This document shows, in pieces, positions 21,267 to 34,434 of a stretch of DNA of 64,000 nucleotides. Made by a program: the position numbers and the translations under genes. Source of the stretch: Sanghuangporus weigelae (Eukaryota > Basidiomycota > Agaricomycetes > Hymenochaetales > Hymenochaetaceae). The DNA lies in assembly GCA_033182465.1 (NCBI GenBank), contig CP137321.1:2108001-2172000 (forward strand), given 5' to 3'. The notes beneath the pieces are model-generated. The model saw only the letters and a program-made list of their open reading frames with translations. It was not told the origin of the DNA and searched no databases. Position 1 is the stretch's first letter; each line of letters opens with the position of its first letter.

Positions 21267-23987
21267 TCAGAACGGCCAATCAAGCTTCTCTCCGAAATTC
21301 CAATGAATAGCCTTGACCGATGTGTACTCCTCCAGCGCATAGCTACCCAGCTCTCGTCCTGAGAATATTCAAAATAAATGAGTACAGGATGACGGACGTG
21401 AGTAGATAGATCAATTGGGGCGCAAGGCTTCAAAAATAGAAGCAGGTGAAACACTACGCACCGATACCACTTTGCTTTTTCCCCCCGAAGGGGACATTAT
21501 TATTCAGAATATTATATTGATTGACCCAGACCTAGAAATCAAACCGTCTCAGGTTGAAAGAAACTGAGGCGATTATTCAAGTGGCATATTCTACACGTAC
21601 AGTTCCGGCCTCCAGGGCAGATGAAACCCGCATGCATTGATTAGCATCATCTGTAAAACGTCGACGAATGAATGTTAGACGTGCCCATGGCGATAATATG
21701 TCATTAAAAGGGAAAGTACGTACTCGAGTGGAAACCAGCACCGAGTCCGTAGCTGGTGTCGTTAGCGAGAGCGATCGCTTCTTCCTCGGTTGAGAACTTG
21801 GCAACGGCCAAAACAGGACCGAAGATCTGCAGCGCACGCGGTGAGCACGCGAGTCATGTCGATGCACGGGGCCGGGACGGAAGAAGCGTGATGCAGGGTA
21901 TGTACCTCTTCTTTCACGATCTTCATCGTGGGCGTGATGCCTCCGAATACTACAAATCGTGACGGAAATACGAATATCAAGAATGCGACATGTCAGCATC
22001 ACAATCAGAGCCACCCATTTCAGGACGGGAGATTGGAATAGACGAACTCGTCGGATCGACCCAGTAGCCGCGTCCCTTACGTTTCTCGCCGCCAAACACA
22101 ACTTTCGCGCCCTCAGACTTGCCGGACTCAATATAATTCCAGACGCGTTCATATTGTGTTTTGGAAACCTGTAGGTCATATCAGAGATAATTCACCTGGG
22201 CCGCGGACTTCCTCTTTAGCAAAAGTGAAGAGCGTGACAGAAATGGAAAGGCAGCTGCGCACCACGGGGCCTGCAGAAGCCCTTTCATCGAAGCCATGAG
22301 AAACCACAAGTGTCTTCGCCTTCTCCACGAGAAGCGCTATGAACTGGTCGTAAACTGTATCTTGCACGTATAGGCGGGACCCTGCTGTGCAATCCTGCCC
22401 GTTGTTGTACAAGATCCCTAAAGCGGCCCAATTTGCAGCTACAGTTCAGAAGCATGGACGCTTCAGCTTTTATCCTGTCCAATGTATTATTTGTCACCAG
22501 CTACTCTCACCTTGCTCCAAGTCGGCGGACTCAAATATGATGTGAGGCGACTTTCCTCCCAGTTCCAGGGAAACCTAGGACATTAACTTAAGGACGATTC
22601 GACATATCTTAATCTGAGATTTCGGACACACTTTCTTCAAGTTACTTTTTGCGGCTGCTTCCATAATTTTACGACCTGTAACAGTCGACCCCGTAAAGGC
22701 GACCTTGTCTACATCTGGATGGGATGCGAGCGCCGCCCCTCCTATTGAGCCTAGCGAAGGCACCGTGTTGATTACACCAGGAGGGAACCTGTCGATAAAT
22801 GTAGATAAAAACCCCTAATCGACAAAAGGTTCAACGGCTCAAACGTACCCGGCCTCCTTAACGAGTTCAGAAAGTTTCTGATGAAGAAGTACTGTAAGAA
22901 CCTCCGAGAAGAATAACAAACCCCCTTGACGCACTAGGGCAGACAGTGGAGTTATTTCCGACGGTTTCATCACGATGGTACATCCCGTGGCCAAAGCAGG
23001 TCCTACTTTCCATGCCCTGAAAATGCACAATTACAACACATTCCAGTCTCCTGGCGAGCATTACAATACCTACCACATTTGGATAGGATAGTTCCAAGGA
23101 ATTCTGAATAGACGACGAATTAGTAAATAGACTGCTCGTGGTTCGAACTACACACGTACATTTGACCACAAACCCCGATAGGATCATGGCGAGTCAAAGC
23201 AAGCTTAGTTTTGTTATCCACCTCGATCGTCTGATAGATTGTTTGTTTGAATAGGTTGATAATGAGAGAATTGGAAATTGCTGAAAGAAGGATAATTTAC
23301 GCACTTGGCCGACGATTTTGTCAGCCCAACCCGCGTAGTATCGGAGACACCCAATCGAATCGGCAATATCGCCATCCCTGATTACCAGCAGATGATTAGA
23401 GTTGACTTATACGGTCTCATTTAGTATTTCTCAATATTAAAATACAAATACCTCGCGATGCGAACCGGTTTTCCATTGTCGAGAGACTCGATTTCTGCAA
23501 GCTCTTGCTGGTCACGTTCCATCAGGTCTGCGAGCTTGTTAATCAGGCGTGCACGCTCGACGCCGGTGACATTCTTTCCCCACGTAGTTTTCAATGCACT
23601 GCGCGCAGCAGCGACAGCGACGCTGATATCTTTCTCGGATGCTAGAGAGAAATATAAGTTTAGATTGATTTGTGAGTCAGACCATGACATCGACATGAGA
23701 ATGGAAGCTCCCGTCTGCTTCCGCACGACGGAAAAACGTACCTGTCGATACCGAGCAGATCACTTCCTCCGTCGCAGGGTTGACGGACCTAAGAGAGGCC
23801 GCCAGGTTTAGTTAGTGTCTTGAGTGAGGGACGAGAGAAGGCAATGTGTGCTTATCAAGCTTTCTTACTGAATTGTCAAGCCATCAACAGATGGTACAAA
23901 TTCGTTGTTTATGAATAGACCCGTCGACAGCGAAATGGACTTATTGCTGCCTGGAACGGGTATTGAGACTGCAGCTGCGAGAGACAT
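21267..23987 (-). CDS. Aldehyde dehydrogenase (class 1/2 NAD(P)+ type)
   Basis: Oxidises aldehydes to acids. Seventeen exons, read downwards: 23987-23869, 23788-23742, 23641-23452, 23377-23305, 23230-23160, 23103-23074, 23016-22935, 22877-22849, 22788-22632, 22574-22511, 22438-22263, 22168-22048, 21949-21906, 21826-21724, 21650-21601, 21531-21462, 21358-21267; 505 residues, normal ALDH length. Visible motifs: [58 protein letters not shown] (general-base Glu), [11 protein letters not shown] (catalytic Cys), [29 protein letters not shown] and the C-terminal [15 protein letters not shown]. No strong mitochondrial presequence, so probably cytosolic. Several exons are only 29-50 bases. Confidence 0.96.
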
Positions 23988-24616
23988 TGTTCTGCGATGT
24001 GAGAGTGGAAGATAAGAAGTGAGGTCAGTGGAGTTGCTGAGAAACTTTCTTCGTATATGACCCGTGCTTAAAGCCGAGATAAGAGAGAATCGGACGCCGC
24101 AATGGATGGCCGTAGTAAGTACCATATACCGCCTTGCTACTTCGTCTCTCGCTATCAGCTTCGATCGAAAATCAGTTCCAGAAATACAGTTTCATGGAAG
24201 CAGAAGAGAGACAATAATGAGCAAAGGTGGACTCAGAAGCGAGGATAATAAACTTTAGATGCAAGCAAACAGATAAAAGCACCATGAAAATGTAGACTTC
24301 GGCTGGAGCAAGTACTGTACTGTCACGGTACTTACTGTAAAAGTCCGGTAATCGGGCGGGCGTGGGGATTTCTACTAGATCTAGAGGAGTAATTAAGCGG
24401 ACATCCGATCCGATGGCGATGGGATTACGAGAGAGTTTCTCATAAGTCGGGATGAACCTCCAATAGGAATAGGAACGAACCTGCGTCCAACCTGCCAGAT
24501 AAGGCAATACCCTTTAAGCTTAGCGATTGGCTCCGAGGGCGTAGTGACGTTGTCAGCGATTTTTCAACGTTTTTGCCACTTCATTCCTTCTTTACCCGAT
24601 ACCACCACCATCCCCC
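23988..24616. other. Divergent promoter region of ALDH and COX subunit genes
   Basis: 629 bases between divergent starts. No gene or repeat is seen. Confidence 0.4.
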
Positions 24617-25195: not shown

Positions 25196-28100
25196 CTAGG
25201 CCACTTTTTCCGCCTTCTTCGCCGCCTTCCTTGCCTGGCTGAGAGCCCGACAATCGCAATGACGGTTCATGAATAGCGGATCACCCTCTATGGCATCCAG
25301 TGCCATCTCCGACACTCGCCTTGCGCAAGAGTTCACTGATGTATCTGTCACGGTCGCCAAGATGATCCCATGAATCACGACTAAAACGAATATGGTCAGC
25401 AGTTCTCCACAAAGAAGTAGCTACGATCAAACATACTCAGGCTTTCGACTGTATGGCCATATTCATTGTACCTGGGATCAATAGGTTCTTTGACAAGCTC
25501 GAAGCTCTGGCAGCCTTGAGACTGCAAAAGCTCGAAAAGGATCTTTGTAGGGTGATGCGATAATGTATGTAGTGTTATGTGCTGGTCATAGAAAGGCGCC
25601 AGAATCTTGTCAAAGAATGCTTCAGCACCGACGGGCGAGAAATTGTCCGACACATAGACGGCCCCGAGAATGGACTCGACGACGTCTGATAAGGCTTTTG
25701 GAGGTTCGATATCAATCCAGTATTGTCCTGGTTGCCTGTCTTCTCGAGTCGCCTGTTCGTACTCCGCCATTTGCTTATCATAGAGCTCGTCGGCGTATGT
25801 TTGAATATTGTTTTCCAAAGAGGCCGACTCAAAAAGCAGATGTTCATGAAGGCCTGACCATATGCAGACGGCCGCTAACGCAGCATTAGAGACCATCGCA
25901 CCCTATGAGAACCCCGAGGAGATCGGATTAGCGTACGTAAGGTTTAATTAATGAAGCTTCCCAACCTTTAGAAAGGTTAGAGCACCCGGAGACAATGCGA
26001 TGTCTCTATCGAAGATGTGGCGGATAACGACTTTAAAGAATAATAGTAGATCGCATCAGTACAACATTACAATAGAGATATGGAAGGCCGACGATAGACG
26101 CGCGAAAAGGGCACGCCTGATTCTAGCCAAACTCACGGAAATCCAATATCGCATCTCCGATGAATTCGAGCCGTTCATAGCTTGTCATCTCATTGCCACT
26201 TATGGATGCGTGCGTCTTTGATATCCAGAATTAAGGATGTCAGGTTAGATACTGATTCACCAACAGGGTTCCACACTCACGAGAGCCTGAGCCAGAAGAT
26301 GCGGATGATTGAATTTGTGTCCGATGATGGCTTCTACTGCCTGTATGGAGCCGGTCGGAAGCTTCGCCGTGACCTCCGGGGGAGGTGCGAGCGCCTTTCG
26401 TCCAAAGTCAGACCACCGATCAATATGGGGGACCGGGATATTCAATGCCTTCGTCACTTTGAGCGCGACTTCCCTACCACCGGTCACATACGCTGCACCT
26501 ATGATCGCCTCCGCGACGTCGGCTACTGCCTTAAAAGAGCAACAAGTCAGAAGTGCGGAAGTTCCTTAAACGTCCAAGCGCGGACTTACTTTGTCCCCGA
26601 GCCATTGTGTCGTAAGGCTTTCTTGCTTCTTCTTACCTGTCTTCTTTGACTGTGCCCCGGCCTCTGGCTGACCATCGGCAGATTTTCCGAACCCATCCTC
26701 CTCGGAGACAACCAAGACGGGATTGTTGCCGATGCTACTCTTCATATCGATAGTTTCTTTCCACACAGCGTCGGAATTCTTTTCAGGAGGTAGTTCACCC
26801 TCCTCTAATTCCTGTTCTAGGATTTCCGTGGGTTCATCTTCCTGACGAGCTTTGGGAGGTCGATAGAGAATGAAATTCTGAGGCACCCATGACTTTGGAG
26901 TGAAAGGCTTGGACTGGATGTACTGGGGCAAACCACCGCGATTAGCATTTTTAAGCAAAGACCTGTTGCTGATAATGCGTTGACGAGAAAGGTGCAATGC
27001 ACCCTCGTGAAGTGTTGGGAACGTCACGAACAAATAAATAGACGATAAGTACTTGAGATACGCATCGCCTTGTATGTTCCATTTCAGCGTAGTGTGATGG
27101 TTACTGTAACTAACGACGTACCAAGTAGCTCAAGACGCTCATAATCTACATCCGCAAGAGTTGATGGAGACGAAACAGCGGCAAGCAACTGACGTTCGGC
27201 AATCGAATGATCAAAATACTTTGCGTTCAATTCCTTTATCAGGAGAATGTCATCGAGCTTCGAGAGAATAGAAGGCAACAAGCAGGCGGTTCGGAAAGCA
27301 CTGTGTCAAATTTCACAGTATTCACAATCTAAGAAACGGCACACTTCCAAAAAGTTGTCCTTCACTTACCTGGCTGGAATAGTGCATTTCGCACAGAGTT
27401 CCGGAATAAGGTCTAGAAAATTTTCAGAATACCAGAAGAATTCGAATCACTGCCTGACGCACATTTTGCAGGAGCATGCTTTGATTCCGCTGTAGATCTC
27501 GCAATTGGATTGAGGTGACTGACCAGCATTGGACAAAGATCAACTTCGATTAGCGGCTGCTTGTAATTCTGGAGCCCGGCGAACTCCTTCCGACGGGCCT
27601 TACAATATTCAACAAAATTGTCGAATTCTTTCTCCCTCTGAATGTTTTAGTGTGGAACCCGTATCCGCTGATATGGATGCACTTACGAGACTATCTTCCG
27701 GTTTGGAAAGAGGTGTGAGATCGGGTCGCATTTTTACGCAATAATACCTGCGAGTAAATTCGGCCCATCTATCCTGAATCATGGCATCTTCGATATCGAT
27801 CATGAGGGTCTGCAGATCTTGAGTATTGAGCGCCACGGTTGGTTTACTCGCTGCAAGCTGTACTTTATCCCAGGCGATATGATCAACAACATTCGGAAAC
27901 TCCCACCGGTGACCGTCATCAGGTGCGTGCAAGTCAACTTCAAAATTACGTGGCAAAGGGGCAAGAAAGTAGGGGACGCTATCCAAGGCACATATATACG
28001 GCTTGTTGGTGATACTGCGGACAATGCGAACCGTGAACTTATACAAATCTTGTAAACGATCCTCATCGATCTCGAAGGCATCTCCGCGCTTGAAAAATAC

Positions 28101-31100
28101 TTTCTTGGGAGAACCAGAGAAATAGATGTCGAAAGGGGACAAGGGTGGCAGAGGAAGTCGCGTTAGTATAACCATTGGGGCATACATGCGTCCGACTTCC
28201 GTCTGACCAGAATTGACGACAGGAACAACAATTGTTGGATACAAGCATCCACGCATGATGGGTAGAGTATTGTCCCAGAAGTCTGGCCTTTTGCGCGAAT
28301 ATAAACGTATACCTGGTGTTTTGTCATGATGCTGCATTGTAGGATCAAAGACCTGATCATCGTCCTCTTCTTTGTCGCTTGACTGTTCAATCATTTTGGC
28401 GGAGATATATGCAGCCCTTTGTGGTCTTGTAGATGGCAGTGGCGGACGAGGGAATAGACGGTAATCAAGAATTCCGCGGGTATATAGCTCGTAGCATGCC
28501 TGATAACAAGCCAATCGTCGAGCTTGCGACATTGAGGAACTTGGGGATCCTGATACTCGACGCAGTGGCGAACCAGGCGGCAGCAGCACAGTGCATATGT
28601 ACATGGTTTTCGATGATGGTCCGTCTTGCAGCTCCTCATATTCAAAGAGCGGCCGATTGAGGCGCTCTTCCACATCACCGGCTGCGGGCAGCTGGGAGGT
28701 AAATCGATACACCACTGTCACAGCATCTTGGACATAGATGCGACCACTTGTGGTGGGGTCCTGCACAAAACTACCAGGATCATCATCTTCGTCGTCGCTA
28801 TCAGATCGATACGGATCGATTGTTTCGCGCAGTGGCAGCGGAGGAATAGAGCTCCCAGCGCTTGTGGAGACTCGTTGAACCCATCTTTCCATTCTTGGGT
28901 CAATACGAGCTACTTGAGCGAGGATACGACGATGGACGTCGCTGCCACGCTCCGCCATATGAACTAGGTGGCATTGTTGACCACGGGCCCGGGCTCTGCA
29001 ATGTGCGTACGAAACCTGGCTGTCGAACAGATCAAACCTGAACCTTGTCAGATACGAGAAAGGACGAGCAATTAAGAGTACATTACCTGATCACGATGGT
29101 CACCGGACATATTTCCAGATCCTCAGCATATTTCGTAGCAATGATGAGATTACAGACTCCCGTCCTAAATGCTTCAAGAATGTCTACCTACAGAGGTTCA
29201 GTAGGTCCACGTTGCAAGCATCAGAAAATCTGATTACCTGAGCCGACGCTTCGGCCACGAGACCGTGTCCAACAAGCGCCTGGGGTCGAATGAATCCTAC
29301 TTGGTCATCTAGAGTGCGCAAGAGATCTGCTAGAACAAGGGCGATGCTCCGTTTTTGTACTGTGAAGATACACTTAATTAGAGACTGACTTCATAAAATC
29401 AGAACATACCAAAAATTATGCCCCTAAAAGCATCACCTTGAGGCTCACACGCCTTTAGAACCTGCATCAACTTTGCAAACTTGGGAGTGACATTGAATCC
29501 CCGTGATGTGGAATCCAATATTGGCATGGTGAATAACCAATTTCGAATAGTACTCTTGATATTTTTTTTTGCTCTTCTGATTGCAGCCTCGGAACCAGCC
29601 TGCAATTCGTCCTCTTCCTCAAATATGGGATCATTACGTACGGTTTCCCCTTCCATTTCCTTCAGAGCTCGACGCCAGACTAAGTCGCAGGCGCACGCGC
29701 CTATCTCCCCCAAGACATACTTTGAATTGCGGGAGTGCGATTGGTACAGTGACATGCGAGGGTCGAACGACCGCAGAGTCCTAAGAAGGGATGTTTCTGC
29801 CACCTGGACTTGGGGATCGTAAAATATGACAAGCTCCATTGGCTTGTCAGGCAATGACAGAATCGAGTCTCTCATCGCATCTTGTACACCGTGATACTTC
29901 GCGTCTAAAACATTTTCCAACTCGAGAAGGCGTATATCAAAGTAGAATCGCGAATCCCGAGGGACTACAATGACGCCAAATACTCTGGGGCGGGATAACT
30001 TGTCAGTGGCTCGGTAGAAGTCCTTCATGAGTATTTGAATCGGATGATTCTCATCGTCTTTAGCAGGCAGTATGTCGTCCATGATCATAAAGTGAACACG
30101 GGAAATAGCGAGAGTCCCTTGGACGAGAGAATCGAATAGAAGCTGGAGTCGAGGACTGAGCTGATAAAAGATGGAGCATTTGAGTTTCGCCTGCTCACCC
30201 TGGCTGATACGATGACGGCTTCCTTCTTATTCGACATGTCAATCCAGGATTCTATAGACGAAGCATGCGAAGCATGAGTGTATACGGTGATCGACAGATT
30301 GCACTGATTGGCTAGCTGAACTGCACGAGCACTTGCAGTTGCTGCATCCCTAGATATTTCATCCATGAAGAGAGAGAGAAAAGGGCACTATTGGGCTCTA
30401 TACTTACTCCACAACTACCAATGCCACTCTCCGCTTGCGTGTAACCGTGAGAGGTCTTTCACGCTCTACTCCACATGCCCATTCGAGAAGCTCGCCAGAA
30501 ATCTTGACCTTCTCTGTTTCACATGGTCAAGAACCAGCTTCATAAAGTCACATGAGAGAACTGACGCGAGTCTGAGTGCAACACAGCAAGAGCTGGAATA
30601 TGTTGGCACATGTTGGCAATCGAAGGGTTACATGCGGCTTACTATTTTCCAACTTTGTTTGAGTAATAAGAGACTCTTCAAATTCGTCAATACTCATACA
30701 CTCGGGCTCCAAGGCACTTTCTTCCTCTTCATCAACGTCCATGATTTCGGGAAGTCGACCATGGATCGCTTCAGGAGAAGCATGCCTTTCGGAAAGGTTG
30801 GTCCTGTGCCGTTTCATCGGACGTTCTTCCACGTCATCCAGCTCGACCTCACTCAGCGTGCGTACTAGCATCGGCGCTGGAGATGCATTGCTACTCGACG
30901 TCGAGAACGCGCCGGTTGACGTATGTCGTTTGTAAGGGGACGTCAAAGAGGCGGAGCAATCGAGAGCGGGAGGGGTGTCGTTGTCTTCGTAAACTTTGAC
31001 ACCACCCTGGGTGCTACCATCCTCCTTTTTCCATGCCTGCTTCCAAGACTTGAGCATTGCATCGAAACTTGAGGAAGATAGAACCAAAGCCTGCAGAGGG

Positions 31101-31129
31101 TGCGAATGGATGAAAGAGAAAGAGTGCAA
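25196..31129 (-). CDS. Dicer-like ribonuclease III with degenerate helicase domain
   Basis: 1671 residues, 17 exons read downwards: 31129-30643, 30592-30566, 30513-30408, 30349-30199, 30160-29410, 29359-29238, 29187-29087, 29037-27687, 27637-27463, 27412-27370, 27300-27122, 27068-26590, 26529-26281, 26215-26137, 26030-25966, 25902-25437, 25380-25196. Processes dsRNA to small RNAs. Order: acidic/Ser-rich N-terminus (1-160), helicase-like region (160-600), Dicer dimerisation domain (from ~640), platform-like region, RNase IIIa (~1105-1340; YERLELLGDAYLKYL; ADVAEAIIGAAY), RNase IIIb (~1390-1540; YERLEFIGDAILDF; ALSDVVESILGAVY) and a short C-terminal segment. All RNase III acids are kept. Helicase signatures are lost: Walker A reads AVLHSDSQKV (165-174), the DECH box DDIL (285-288), motif VI CRARARG (595-601). 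An ATG at 31057 is an alternative start. Confidence 0.92.
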
Positions 31130-31229
31130 GTTGTTGAGCCACGCGATTTGTTATTCATCGATATCTTTATCACTCATGGCACGTGCCCGCGACAGACAGA
31201 ATTAATAATTGACTGACGTCGCCAAATTA

Positions 31230-31457
31230 CAGTAAATAATGATTGACACGTGATTTTTGCCATTTTCGGCCCTCAAAACACAAAATAAATCATATCTCAC
31301 CCAATACTTAACCGTTTTGCATGATCTAAGTTGCTAAATTCATCATTGAATTGTGGGTTTCATATTCCAACTTGAGCAATGGAAAACGGTGCACAAATGA
31401 CCCCAGAACGTCGCAAATTGCTGATTTTGCACACAGCCCACTTTCTCATATTTTCCT
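31230..31457 (+). repeat. Left terminal inverted repeat of the MITE
   Basis: Starts CAGTAAATAATGATT, then ACACGTGATTTTTGCC. It matches the reverse complement of 31728-31961 across nearly its whole length. Confidence 0.85.
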
Positions 31458-31727
31458 GACCTCAGACCTGGCTGTACAGCTCTCCAGACCAGTCCTAAAT
31501 GATAATATGACTTTACTACGAATTTACATATTGAATTTGAGCTGAAATGTGTACTGGAATTGTCAGTCTGTGGCATGCCTGAGATGCCGAAAACTGCACA
31601 TCTCCCCCTTGAGCTCTCTGGCCCCAAAGAAGCAGTTTTCTGGCCAGATCCATGCACATAAAATCATGATAATTGCACTAGATTATATATAAGCATCATT
31701 CAGGGCTCCAGACTCAGCTGGTGAGCT

Positions 31728-31961
31728 GGGAAATTTTGAGAAGTGGGTTGTGTGCAAAATCAGCAGTTTGCGACGTTTTGGGGTCATTTGTGCACCGTTT
31801 TCCATTGATCAAGTTGGAATATGAAACCCACAATTCAATGATGAATTTAGCAACTTAGATCATGCAAAACGGTTAAGTATTGGGTGAGATATGATTTATT
31901 TTGTGTTTTGAGGGCCGAAAATGGCAAAAATCACGTGTCCAAATCATTATGGAATTCACTG
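31728..31961 (-). repeat. Right terminal inverted repeat of the MITE
   Basis: Reverse complement of the left arm, a few bases longer near the tip (an extra TCCA-type insertion beside the CATTATGG stretch). Confidence 0.85.
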
Positions 31962-32103
31962 TAGGATAAATACTCGCGCGCGCGGGAGCGTTCCATCATT
32001 GGCTCTTCACTCCGTCATGCTCAGGCTGGTGCCTCCTTCCCTTCCTCTTTCTCTCCGCCATCTCTCTCAGAATAAGCGCAGTACAGTTGTATCTTTCACT
32101 AGG

Positions 32104-34434
32104 ATGGCAAGCAGCTTTGCAGCAGCGGTATGTTTCAAGCTTTTCAATGTCTCGTCCTTCAAGTTTATGGTACCATACAGTTCGGACTGAAGGATGAGGG
32201 TCTCCTGCAGACAAAAGGTTACATTGCAGGTCAATGGAGGGACGCTCTAGACGGTGCTACAATTTCTGTCACCAGTATGTAACGTCAAGAAATTCAAGGC
32301 TTCAAGAGTTATGCATGTATTTGTAGATCCTGCTACCGGGCAGGAGATTGGAACAGTACCCGAAATGGGCGTCAAAGAAACACAGGAGGCCATCACTGCA
32401 GCTCAGGATAGCTTCAAGGCATGGAAAAGGACAACAGCAAAGGTCAGTAAATACGTTTCCGTTGGCATTCGAACGTGTTCTCACTGTACTAAATTTATCT
32501 GTAGCATCGTCATGACTTACTCATGAAGATGTATGCTCTCATGCAGGAGCATTCAGATGATCTCGCAAAAATTCTGGCAAGTCCCGTCAGCTAATTCTGT
32601 CCCTCAGACTCACGCGGAAAATTTTTTTTAACAGACTATGGAAAACGGGAAAACCTTAAATGACGCAAAAGTACGCCAGATCTGTAGTCATGTTTCTTAG
32701 TCCTCAGATATCCTCAGGCCGAAATTACATACAGTTCATCTTTCATTGAGGTAAGTATTACTTGTCCGATTTTGGATCCTTATTGATATCTATTATAGTG
32801 GTTTGGTATGTATCCCTCGAACTTTGCTCTTCCGCGATGCTAAGAACTTTCTGAAGCGGAGGAAGCCGTTCGGACATACGGAGGTAAATGCAGGATTTCA
32901 TTGAACCCCTTCGATTCACTGAGAAATTCCAGAAACCATTCCCGCGCCGGTTCCTGGTATCAGGAACGTAACGGTTATGCAACCAGTCGGTAAGTATATG
33001 CGTCCTTCAACCCAACTTAATTGTTATCGAACATTGTCATTCTAGGCGTATGGTGAGGAGGAATGTTTCTGCGTCAATAAAAACGTATTTAGTTTTGTAT
33101 AGCGCCATCTTGACTCCATGGAACTTCCCTTCGGCTATGGTAAGCTTCATGATATCCCATTAAACAGATCCTAATGCTTCTGAAGATCACTCGTAAACTT
33201 GGGCCTGCGCTTGCTGCTGGATGCACCGCTGTCGTGAAGCCTCCTCCAGAGACGCCCTTTTCAGCTCTCGCTCTCATGGAGGTGTGTTTGGGCTTCCTCT
33301 TGATATCCTATATTTATGATGGTCTGAGTCGAAGGATATACGCAGTTAGCGCGACGTGCTGGGTTCCCGGATGGAGTCATCAATGTCGTAACGACCATGA
33401 AAAATGTCGGCGAGGTCGGGAAAGAGCTTTGCGAGAATACTACTGTACGAAAGGTCACGTTCACCGGCTCCACTGCCGTAGCAAAACTCCTGTATTCGAT
33501 GTCTGCGAGCACTATGAAGAAGTGAGTGTGAAGCTGTAAGTATTTATAATGTCCCAGCTAAGATGTCTGTAGGATTTCGTTCGAAGCAGGAGGAAACTCA
33601 CCTTTCATCGTATTTGACGATGCAGATATTGATGCCGCTGTAGAAGGTGCAGTTCATGAATATTTGCACGTATAAACTACTCACATGTCTTAGGTGCTGC
33701 ATTATGCAAGTACCGTGCGTCCGGCCAAACTTGCGTCTGCGCTAACAGGATTTACGTCCATTCCTCTGTGTATGCTGAGTTCGCATCTCGTCTGGCTGCC
33801 AAGGTTGCCACTTTCAAAGTTGGTAGCGGCTTGGATAAGGAAACGTATGTGGCCTTCACTATCCGATAGCCTTCTGATAGTTCTGATTCTGTTTCAAATA
33901 TCAGGACCCATGGCCCACTGATCCACGACCGCGCAATCAAAAAGGTTGAAGAGCACGTCGCTGACGCCATTGGAAAGGGCGCACAGGTCCTTATCGGTGG
34001 TTCGCGCCTCGAAGGCCCGGGATCCTTCTTTGCTCCGACTGTCCTGTCTGACGTTCCTCCAAATGTCAGACTCTCCAACGAAGAGACATTTGGGCCCATT
34101 GCGGCACTCATCAAATTCGAAACAGAGGAAGAAGTGCTGAAACTCGCGAACAATACGCAATACGGTTTAGCTGGCTACTTCTACTCGCGTGATATTGGCC
34201 GTGTATGGCGTGTTGCGGAGGCCCTTGAGGTTGGGATGGTCGGCGCGAATACTGGTACGATCTCGTCAGCTGTCATTCCATTTGGCGGAGTCAAAGAGAG
34301 TGGTCTTGGTAAGTAGTGATTTACCATGTGCCTCCTTGAACCGGTTCCCTTACGTTTTATTATCAGGCCGCGAAGGTGCACATGGTATTCAGGAGTATAT
34401 GCAGACAAAGTTGATTGCGTTCGGTGGCGTATGA
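32104..34434 (+). CDS. UGA2: Succinate-semialdehyde dehydrogenase (GABA shunt)
   Basis: Oxidises succinate semialdehyde to succinate. Seventeen exons: 32104-32127, 32181-32274, 32327-32442, 32505-32576, 32635-32670, 32718-32750, 32799-32805, 32857-32883, 32933-32989, 33046-33052, 33103-33139, 33186-33281, 33346-33521, 33573-33646, 33694-33844, 33905-34308, 34367-34434; 492 residues. Motifs: [102 protein letters not shown] (catalytic Cys), [13 protein letters not shown] and [17 protein letters not shown]. The EAEE-type FAEE and TFGP..GREG-H patterns mark the SSADH branch. Two exons are only 7 bases. The intron after exon 4 begins GCAAGT; an alternative GT nine bases downstream keeps frame and would add Ala-Ser-Pro. 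Confidence 0.94.
32577..32634 (+). other. Probable GC-AG intron in the SSADH gene, with a competing GT donor
   Basis: CTG|GCAAGT gives ILTMENGK, the family sequence. A GT donor at 32586 also keeps frame and would insert three residues. Confidence 0.6.

Follow-up and report, generated by a model that had tools for sequence, protein, structure and literature searches.

Can a fungal Dicer lose the ATP site of its helicase and still hold on to the helicase itself? The question is raised by a gene of Sanghuangporus weigelae, which lies in a stretch of 64,000 nucleotides (nt) of contig CP137321.1 (C4:2108001-2172000, hereafter the window) in a genome assembly of 33.87 Mb and 13 contigs. A first-pass annotation, made from the letters of the window alone, had described this gene as a Dicer with intact RNase III sites and a dead-looking helicase, the latter seemingly held by selection as an ATP-independent scaffold. 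With a probability of about 0.65, the gene would encode a full-length Dicer of the PAZ type with a pseudo-ATPase for a helicase, an enzyme that would cut RNA without ATP while using the helicase as a fixed clamp.

Genes were predicted with a codon and splice-site model, whose codon table was taken from the long open frames of three Dicer loci and which no protein alignment steered. For the gene in the window, the automatic model had 18 exons, one of them a single nucleotide. One RNase IIIb junction was corrected by hand, and none of the helicase exons was hand-set. The final gene (25196..31057, minus strand, as are all its features given below) has 17 exons and encodes 1641 amino acids (aa); its 16 introns are all of the GT-AG type and measure 49 to 106 nt. 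The span first proposed for the Dicer, 28900-30640, does enclose the helicase part, but the gene is larger. By profile and alignment, two RNase III domains are present, each with both of its acid pairs: YERLELLGD (aa 1128-1136) and ADVAEAIIG (1297-1305) in the RNase IIIa region (26392..27371), YERLEFIGD (1390-1398) and LSDVVESILG (1496-1505) in the RNase IIIb region (25633..26352). The claim that all four acid pairs are kept thus holds in the 17-exon model, and the whole protein scores 131 bits with the Pfam profile Ribonuclease_3. The helicase profiles behave differently: DEAD and ResIII gave no listed match on this protein in the Pfam search, and Helicase_C reached 22.1 bits (E 1.9e-4), below its cut-off of 23.5.

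Searches of the genome with Ribonuclease_3 and Dicer_dimer pointed to three Dicers, namely that of the window, one on contig C3 (L008) and one on contig C2 (L009). Both paralogues exceed the Pfam cut-offs for DEAD, ResIII and Helicase_C, and their motifs read GSGKT, DECH (C3) or DEAH (C2), TASP and QSRGRAR. A second Dicer with intact motifs, for which the first-pass annotation had proposed to look, is therefore found twice. The automatic C2 model skipped Walker A and overran the stop; in that of C3, an intron at motif V was wrong and the stop was again overrun. Both were corrected by hand with GT-AG introns picked after the motif locations had been seen, so that the intact motif I of C2 and motif V of C3 rest partly on this choice.

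The helicase motifs of the window Dicer were placed by a six-way alignment with the two paralogues and three solved-structure Dicer chains, the motif borders being chosen by us. At the position of motif I (Walker A), the protein reads HSDSQKV (aa 144-150, 30506..30578, split by an intron at the exon 2/3 junction). At that of motif II (DECH) it reads DDIL, within MDDILPA (aa 254-260, 30062..30082), at that of motif III (TASP) IVVP, within GVIVVPR (aa 289-295, 29957..29977), and at that of motif VI AHCRARARG (aa 563-571, 28980..29006). The readings HSDSQKV, DDIL, VIVVP and CRARARG, which had been proposed without this alignment, do fall on motifs I, II, III and VI. Two further losses had escaped the earlier reading. 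Motif V (IIATKYAED-LEI, 29110..29145) lacks the invariant glycine of EEGLD, with a gap in its place, and no invariant residue is kept in the Q motif (0/3), motif Ia (0/4) or motif Ib (0/3). The Walker lysine and the arginine residues of motif VI are still present. An SF2 helicase is expected to be unable to hydrolyse ATP once it lacks the glycines and hydroxyl residue of the P-loop, the catalytic glutamate of DECH, and the glutamine and glycine of motif VI. Motifs Q, I, II, III, V and VI, by which an ATP-dependent SF2 helicase is recognised, have 26 invariant columns, of which 7 are kept in the window Dicer. Judged from its sequence, the residues for ATP binding, hydrolysis and coupling are replaced, as are motifs Ia and Ib, with which HEL1 would grip RNA. 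The helicase is indeed dead-looking, its ATP site being gone at motifs I, II, III, V and VI, and we infer that the enzyme would be independent of ATP.

An error of the gene model or of the assembly would offer a trivial explanation, if different exons brought the motifs back. What speaks for it is exon 2, an exon of only 27 nt (30566-30592) in a predicted model, which holds half of the Walker A position and is the least certain of all. The three minus-strand frames were scanned at 29000-31300, and neither [AG]xxxxGK[ST] nor the motif VI pattern was found there. The scan returned one DE.[HD], which is DENH at 30055, in the frame of the gene and 9 residues past the motif II position, three G[KR][ST] (GRS, GRS and GRT), all without a P-loop, and three [ST]A[ST]. 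Restoration of the motifs by other reading frames was rejected, as this interval holds no Walker A or DECH box. One 733-nt exon holds both motif II and motif III, another of 1351 nt holds motif VI, and the residues next to these motifs align. We regard such an artefact as very improbable.

Truncation of the helicase was rejected as well. The region HEL1-HEL2i-HEL2 (aa 123-600, 28893..30691) is full length by alignment. From motif I to motif VI it measures 420 residues, compared to 437 and 491 in the paralogues, and about 511 residues separate motif I from the start of the Dicer dimerisation domain (DUF283, aa 657-749, 28446..28724, 64.9 bits for a Pfam cut-off of 23.7), compared to 524 and 568. 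Ahead of motif I, the window Dicer has some 110 residues more than the paralogues. The motif I to VI span, together with the 17-exon model, bears out the earlier statement that the domain is full length and in frame across many exons. The best match of the protein among solved structures is the Arabidopsis DCL1 chain 7eld (E 4.5e-90), which aligns to parts of the helicase, of DUF283, of the connector and of RNase III. The helicase alone matches the reconstructed AncD1D2 over most of the domain (E 5.9e-26), HEL2 matches an LGP2-type chain (DHX58, E 2.3e-10), and the HEL1 stretch is recognisable by itself (E 1.6e-9 with a Dicer-like 4 chain, 8.7e-9 with AncD1D2). At the level of sequence, the predicted protein thus has the N-terminal RIG-I-like helicase fold expected of a Dicer.

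Is this fold maintained by selection? The open frame says nothing on this point, since the RNase III part is read from it further downstream, and it was rejected as a proof of selection. We turned to the 67 alignment columns at which five ATPase-type Dicers (C3, C2, AncD1D2, the DCL1 chain and the Dicer-like 4 chain) all have the same residue. Besides the 7 of 26 in the ATP motifs, the window Dicer keeps 2 of the 9 columns that belong to motifs Ia, Ib and IV; of the 32 that lie elsewhere, it keeps 22. The difference is significant when ATP motifs are compared to columns elsewhere (Fisher p 0.0033), when ATP and RNA motifs are pooled against these (p 0.0006), and when ATP motifs are compared to all the rest (p 0.0136). 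In a leave-one-out test, where each of the five was judged by the columns invariant in the remaining four, the intact Dicers keep 26/26 to 26/28 ATP columns and 32/36 to 32/46 of the others; judged by these columns too, the window Dicer retains 7/26 to 9/28 in the ATP motifs, and 27/42, 26/46, 24/38, 24/38 and 23/36 of the others.

The columns kept were then compared to those expected from neutral drift. Codons of the paralogues were mutated, stops and indels being disallowed, until the ATP motifs were down to 7 of their 26 columns; such runs start from the paralogues and not from the true ancestor, and they give neither a ratio of non-synonymous to synonymous substitution rates (dN/dS) nor a date for the loss. 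In 300 runs from C3, the non-motif columns kept averaged 9.8 of 32, with a maximum of 20, and the observed 22 were never attained, neither in these runs (0/300) nor in two further series (0/400 from C3 and 0/400 from C2). The score against AncD1D2 was 103.5 bits for the window Dicer and 80.1 for the best simulated sequence (260 of the 300 gave a match), with 270.5 for C3 and 182.3 for C2. HEL2 was 30.7% identical to DCL1, compared to a simulated maximum of 22.7% (the columns compared being nearly, not exactly, the same). In the RNA-motif columns, the simulated mean was 2.7 out of 9 and the observed count 2.

These results bear on the possibility that the helicase is in early decay, free of selection and drifting, its frame kept open by nothing but the RNase III domains that follow. 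An open frame would be expected anyway in that case, and the other Dicers could cover the function; HEL1, moreover, is less family-like than that of either paralogue, and its identity to DCL1 falls in the neutral range. Yet neutral runs never match the non-catalytic columns kept, nor the identity of HEL2 to DCL1, and the helicase has not been shortened. Plain neutral decay of the helicase is disfavoured by these observations, and we hold early decay to be unlikely.

Domain identities, computed outside the ATP motifs, separate the two halves of the helicase. For HEL1, the window Dicer is 23.0% identical to DCL1 (C3 41.6%, C2 31.6%), 20.1% to AncD1D2 (39.1%, 29.9%) and 23.0% to Dicer-like 4 (35.6%, 30.4%). 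For HEL2, the values are 30.7% with DCL1 (28.1%, 27.3%) and 34.2% with AncD1D2 (33.1%, 29.3%), and for RNase III 36.8% with DCL1 (31.2%, 33.3%). This means that the nuclease has been as conservative as those of the paralogues, that HEL2 has been so with respect to two of the three references, and that HEL1 has evolved faster. Relaxation could then be partial, with HEL2 and HEL2i kept as a clamp or partner dock and HEL1 alone decaying, toward a reduced HEL1 such as that of fly Dicer-1. In line with this, non-motif columns are kept at 13 of 21 in HEL1 and 9 of 11 in HEL2, HEL1 identity is under that of both paralogues for all three references, where HEL2 is so for one only, and a search of the fly Dicer-1 chain with the C3 helicase has its best stretch in HEL2. 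Neutral runs nevertheless reach the HEL1 count in just 5/400 and 3/400 cases (1/400 and 1/400 for that of HEL2), and HEL1 can be recognised on its own. Partial relaxation is doubtful in our opinion, if somewhat less so than early decay.

Several points weigh against a pseudo-ATPase kept by selection. The HEL1 identity to DCL1 lies within what neutral drift produces (simulated mean 15.4%, maximum 27.9%), and the identity of HEL2 to Dicer-like 4 is lower (21.1%) than in C3 (30.0%) and C2 (26.9%). With a looser cut, where columns conserved in 4 of the 5 Dicers are counted, 10/30 ATP, 3/15 RNA and 36/70 other columns are kept, and the comparison of ATP motifs to all others (10/30 vs 39/85) is not significant (p 0.29). 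Some constraint has also been lost outside the motifs, where the columns kept are well above those of the ATP motifs but below those of an intact Dicer. Relatives were sought with a 450-aa piece of exon 8 in genome and viral contig collections; no orthologue was found in these, and dN/dS could for this reason not be computed. Structure prediction of exon 5 alone, without an alignment, gave a mean predicted local distance difference test (pLDDT) score of 42.3, too poor to be used. Finally, animal Dicers are the source of both the substrate and the clamp role proposed here. Taken as a whole, the comparisons support a fold under constraint, clearly for HEL2 and, with mixed signals, less so for HEL1. 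The proposal of an ATP-independent scaffold under selection is thus partly supported, best for HEL2, by its closeness to DCL1 and AncD1D2, and it gains from the contrast between column classes, from the neutral runs and from the existence of two intact Dicers; for HEL1, and for HEL2 as compared to Dicer-like 4, it is weakened.

If the helicase is indeed a pseudo-ATPase, the PAZ and platform of the window Dicer would anchor a short duplex or a hairpin by its end, and the cut would be made without ATP, at a distance set by the connector helix. The helicase would serve as a fixed clamp or lid and as a partner-docking surface, like HEL1 of mouse Dicer and fly Dicer-1, and processive, ATP-driven dicing of long double-stranded RNA (dsRNA) would fall to the other Dicers. 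The PAZ and connector helix region (aa 964-1091, 27252..27803) is matched by Dicer chains such as 4ngf (human platform-PAZ), with an E value of 4.2e-10; the Pfam PAZ profile gives a weak match (13.2 bits, E 0.091, for a cut-off of 28.8).

This class of Dicer is partly in print. In a survey of 1592 fungal proteomes, 273 non-canonical C Dicers were counted, primarily in Basidiomycota and clade Ba2; those without any helicase component, or with Helicase_C only, are mainly from Ba2 and are described as "potentially lacking ATPase activity", their shorter N-terminus being read as a possibly true truncation (Melet et al. 2025, PMC12663654). The main text of this survey contains none of the terms "acidic", "active site" and "RNase IIIb" in exactly this spelling. 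The window Dicer resembles these proteins as a basidiomycete Dicer found alongside Dicers with a complete helicase, with DEAD and ResIII undetected and Helicase_C only. It differs in that its helicase is full length and has lost the ATP site, where the survey suggests truncation, and in that the survey Dicers pass the PAZ profile (E <= 1e-3) whereas its own match fails this threshold, so that its class by the survey rules is not certain and the comparison is one of profiles only.

Among animal Dicers, fly Dicer-1 works without ATP, has a degenerate helicase and is paired with the ATP-using Dicer-2 (PMC10328071), an arrangement like the present one; the differences are that HEL1 is still recognisable in the window Dicer, which is fungal and known from sequence alone. 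The fungal loss of the ATP site was probably independent of that of fly Dicer-1. In mouse Dicer, HEL1 has an ATP-independent structural role in the closed state, but in mammals the ATPase residues, replaced in the window Dicer, are preserved (PMC9645528). Coprinopsis cinerea DCL-3, reported to occur only in mushroom-forming basidiomycetes, is likewise a PAZ-bearing mushroom Dicer, the likeness being one of description only (PMC6145500). Dicer-2 of Sanghuangporus vaninii is also a PAZ-bearing basidiomycete Dicer, but it is reported with a DEXHc_dicer domain (PMC9769868), and helicase loss may therefore not be universal in PAZ-bearing Dicers. A report on Agaricomycotina gives Dicer counts and, in the text available, does not touch on helicase residues (PMC4290597). 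Among the open-licence papers searched, supplements excluded, none was found to describe a fungal pseudo-helicase Dicer at the level of residues.

The residue-level evidence presented here suggests that a Dicer of basidiomycetes in which helicase profiles are missing is not necessarily truncated, and can carry a full-length pseudo-helicase that is at least partly under selection. If so, it would be a fungal parallel, probably an independent one, to fly Dicer-1 and mammalian Dicer, in which loss of ATP use accompanies the processing of microRNA and not of long dsRNA. The idea becomes testable in mushrooms, where microRNA-like RNAs have been reported (PMC6145500).

Genes of RNA interference exist in this genome, as indicated by 34 Piwi matches for Argonaute and 19 matches for RNA-dependent RNA polymerase, both counted by exon pieces. 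Piwi matches whose scores are identical or nearly so, with a shared stop pattern, were seen at C5:2744322-2745120, C8:256739-257537, C9:1460395-1461193 and C13:1519847-1520645, which suggests recent copies of one Argonaute-like sequence. The class II peroxidase extension has matches at 23 places in the genome; together with the set of Dicers, these would suit a wood-decaying Agaricomycete. In the C2 Dicer (C2:3018500-3026500), two conserved acids of RNase IIIb look replaced, E to M in YERMMFLGD and E to Q in SDIVQSTLG; these changes sit in an open frame of 979 codons, and the helicase motifs are intact. It is possibly a nicking Dicer that would cut one strand. The three Dicers might even share out the work of one enzyme, the window Dicer having two intact nuclease sites and no motor, C2 an intact motor and a dead-looking RNase IIIb, and C3 both. 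C2 would then move along long dsRNA, either nicking one of its strands or feeding ends, with the ATP-free, PAZ-measured cut left to the window enzyme; we consider this division of labour a long shot. A fourth gene (L010, C2:754500-757800) has a single RNase III match, with Ribonuclease_3 at C2:756145, and no Dicer_dimer match; our guess would be a mitochondrial ribosomal or Rnt1 type.

Directly upstream of the 5′ end of the window Dicer lies an inverted repeat (31245-31939), with arms of 212 nt that are 95% complementary and spaced by 271 nt. One arm has at least 46 matches genome-wide (40 of 410 candidates scored), among them its own two; several form pairs in opposite orientation, so the repeat belongs to a mobile-element-like family. 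Two aldehyde-dehydrogenase-like genes, recognised by eye only, flank the Dicer, at 22500-24030 on the minus strand and at 32100-34430 on the plus strand of the window.
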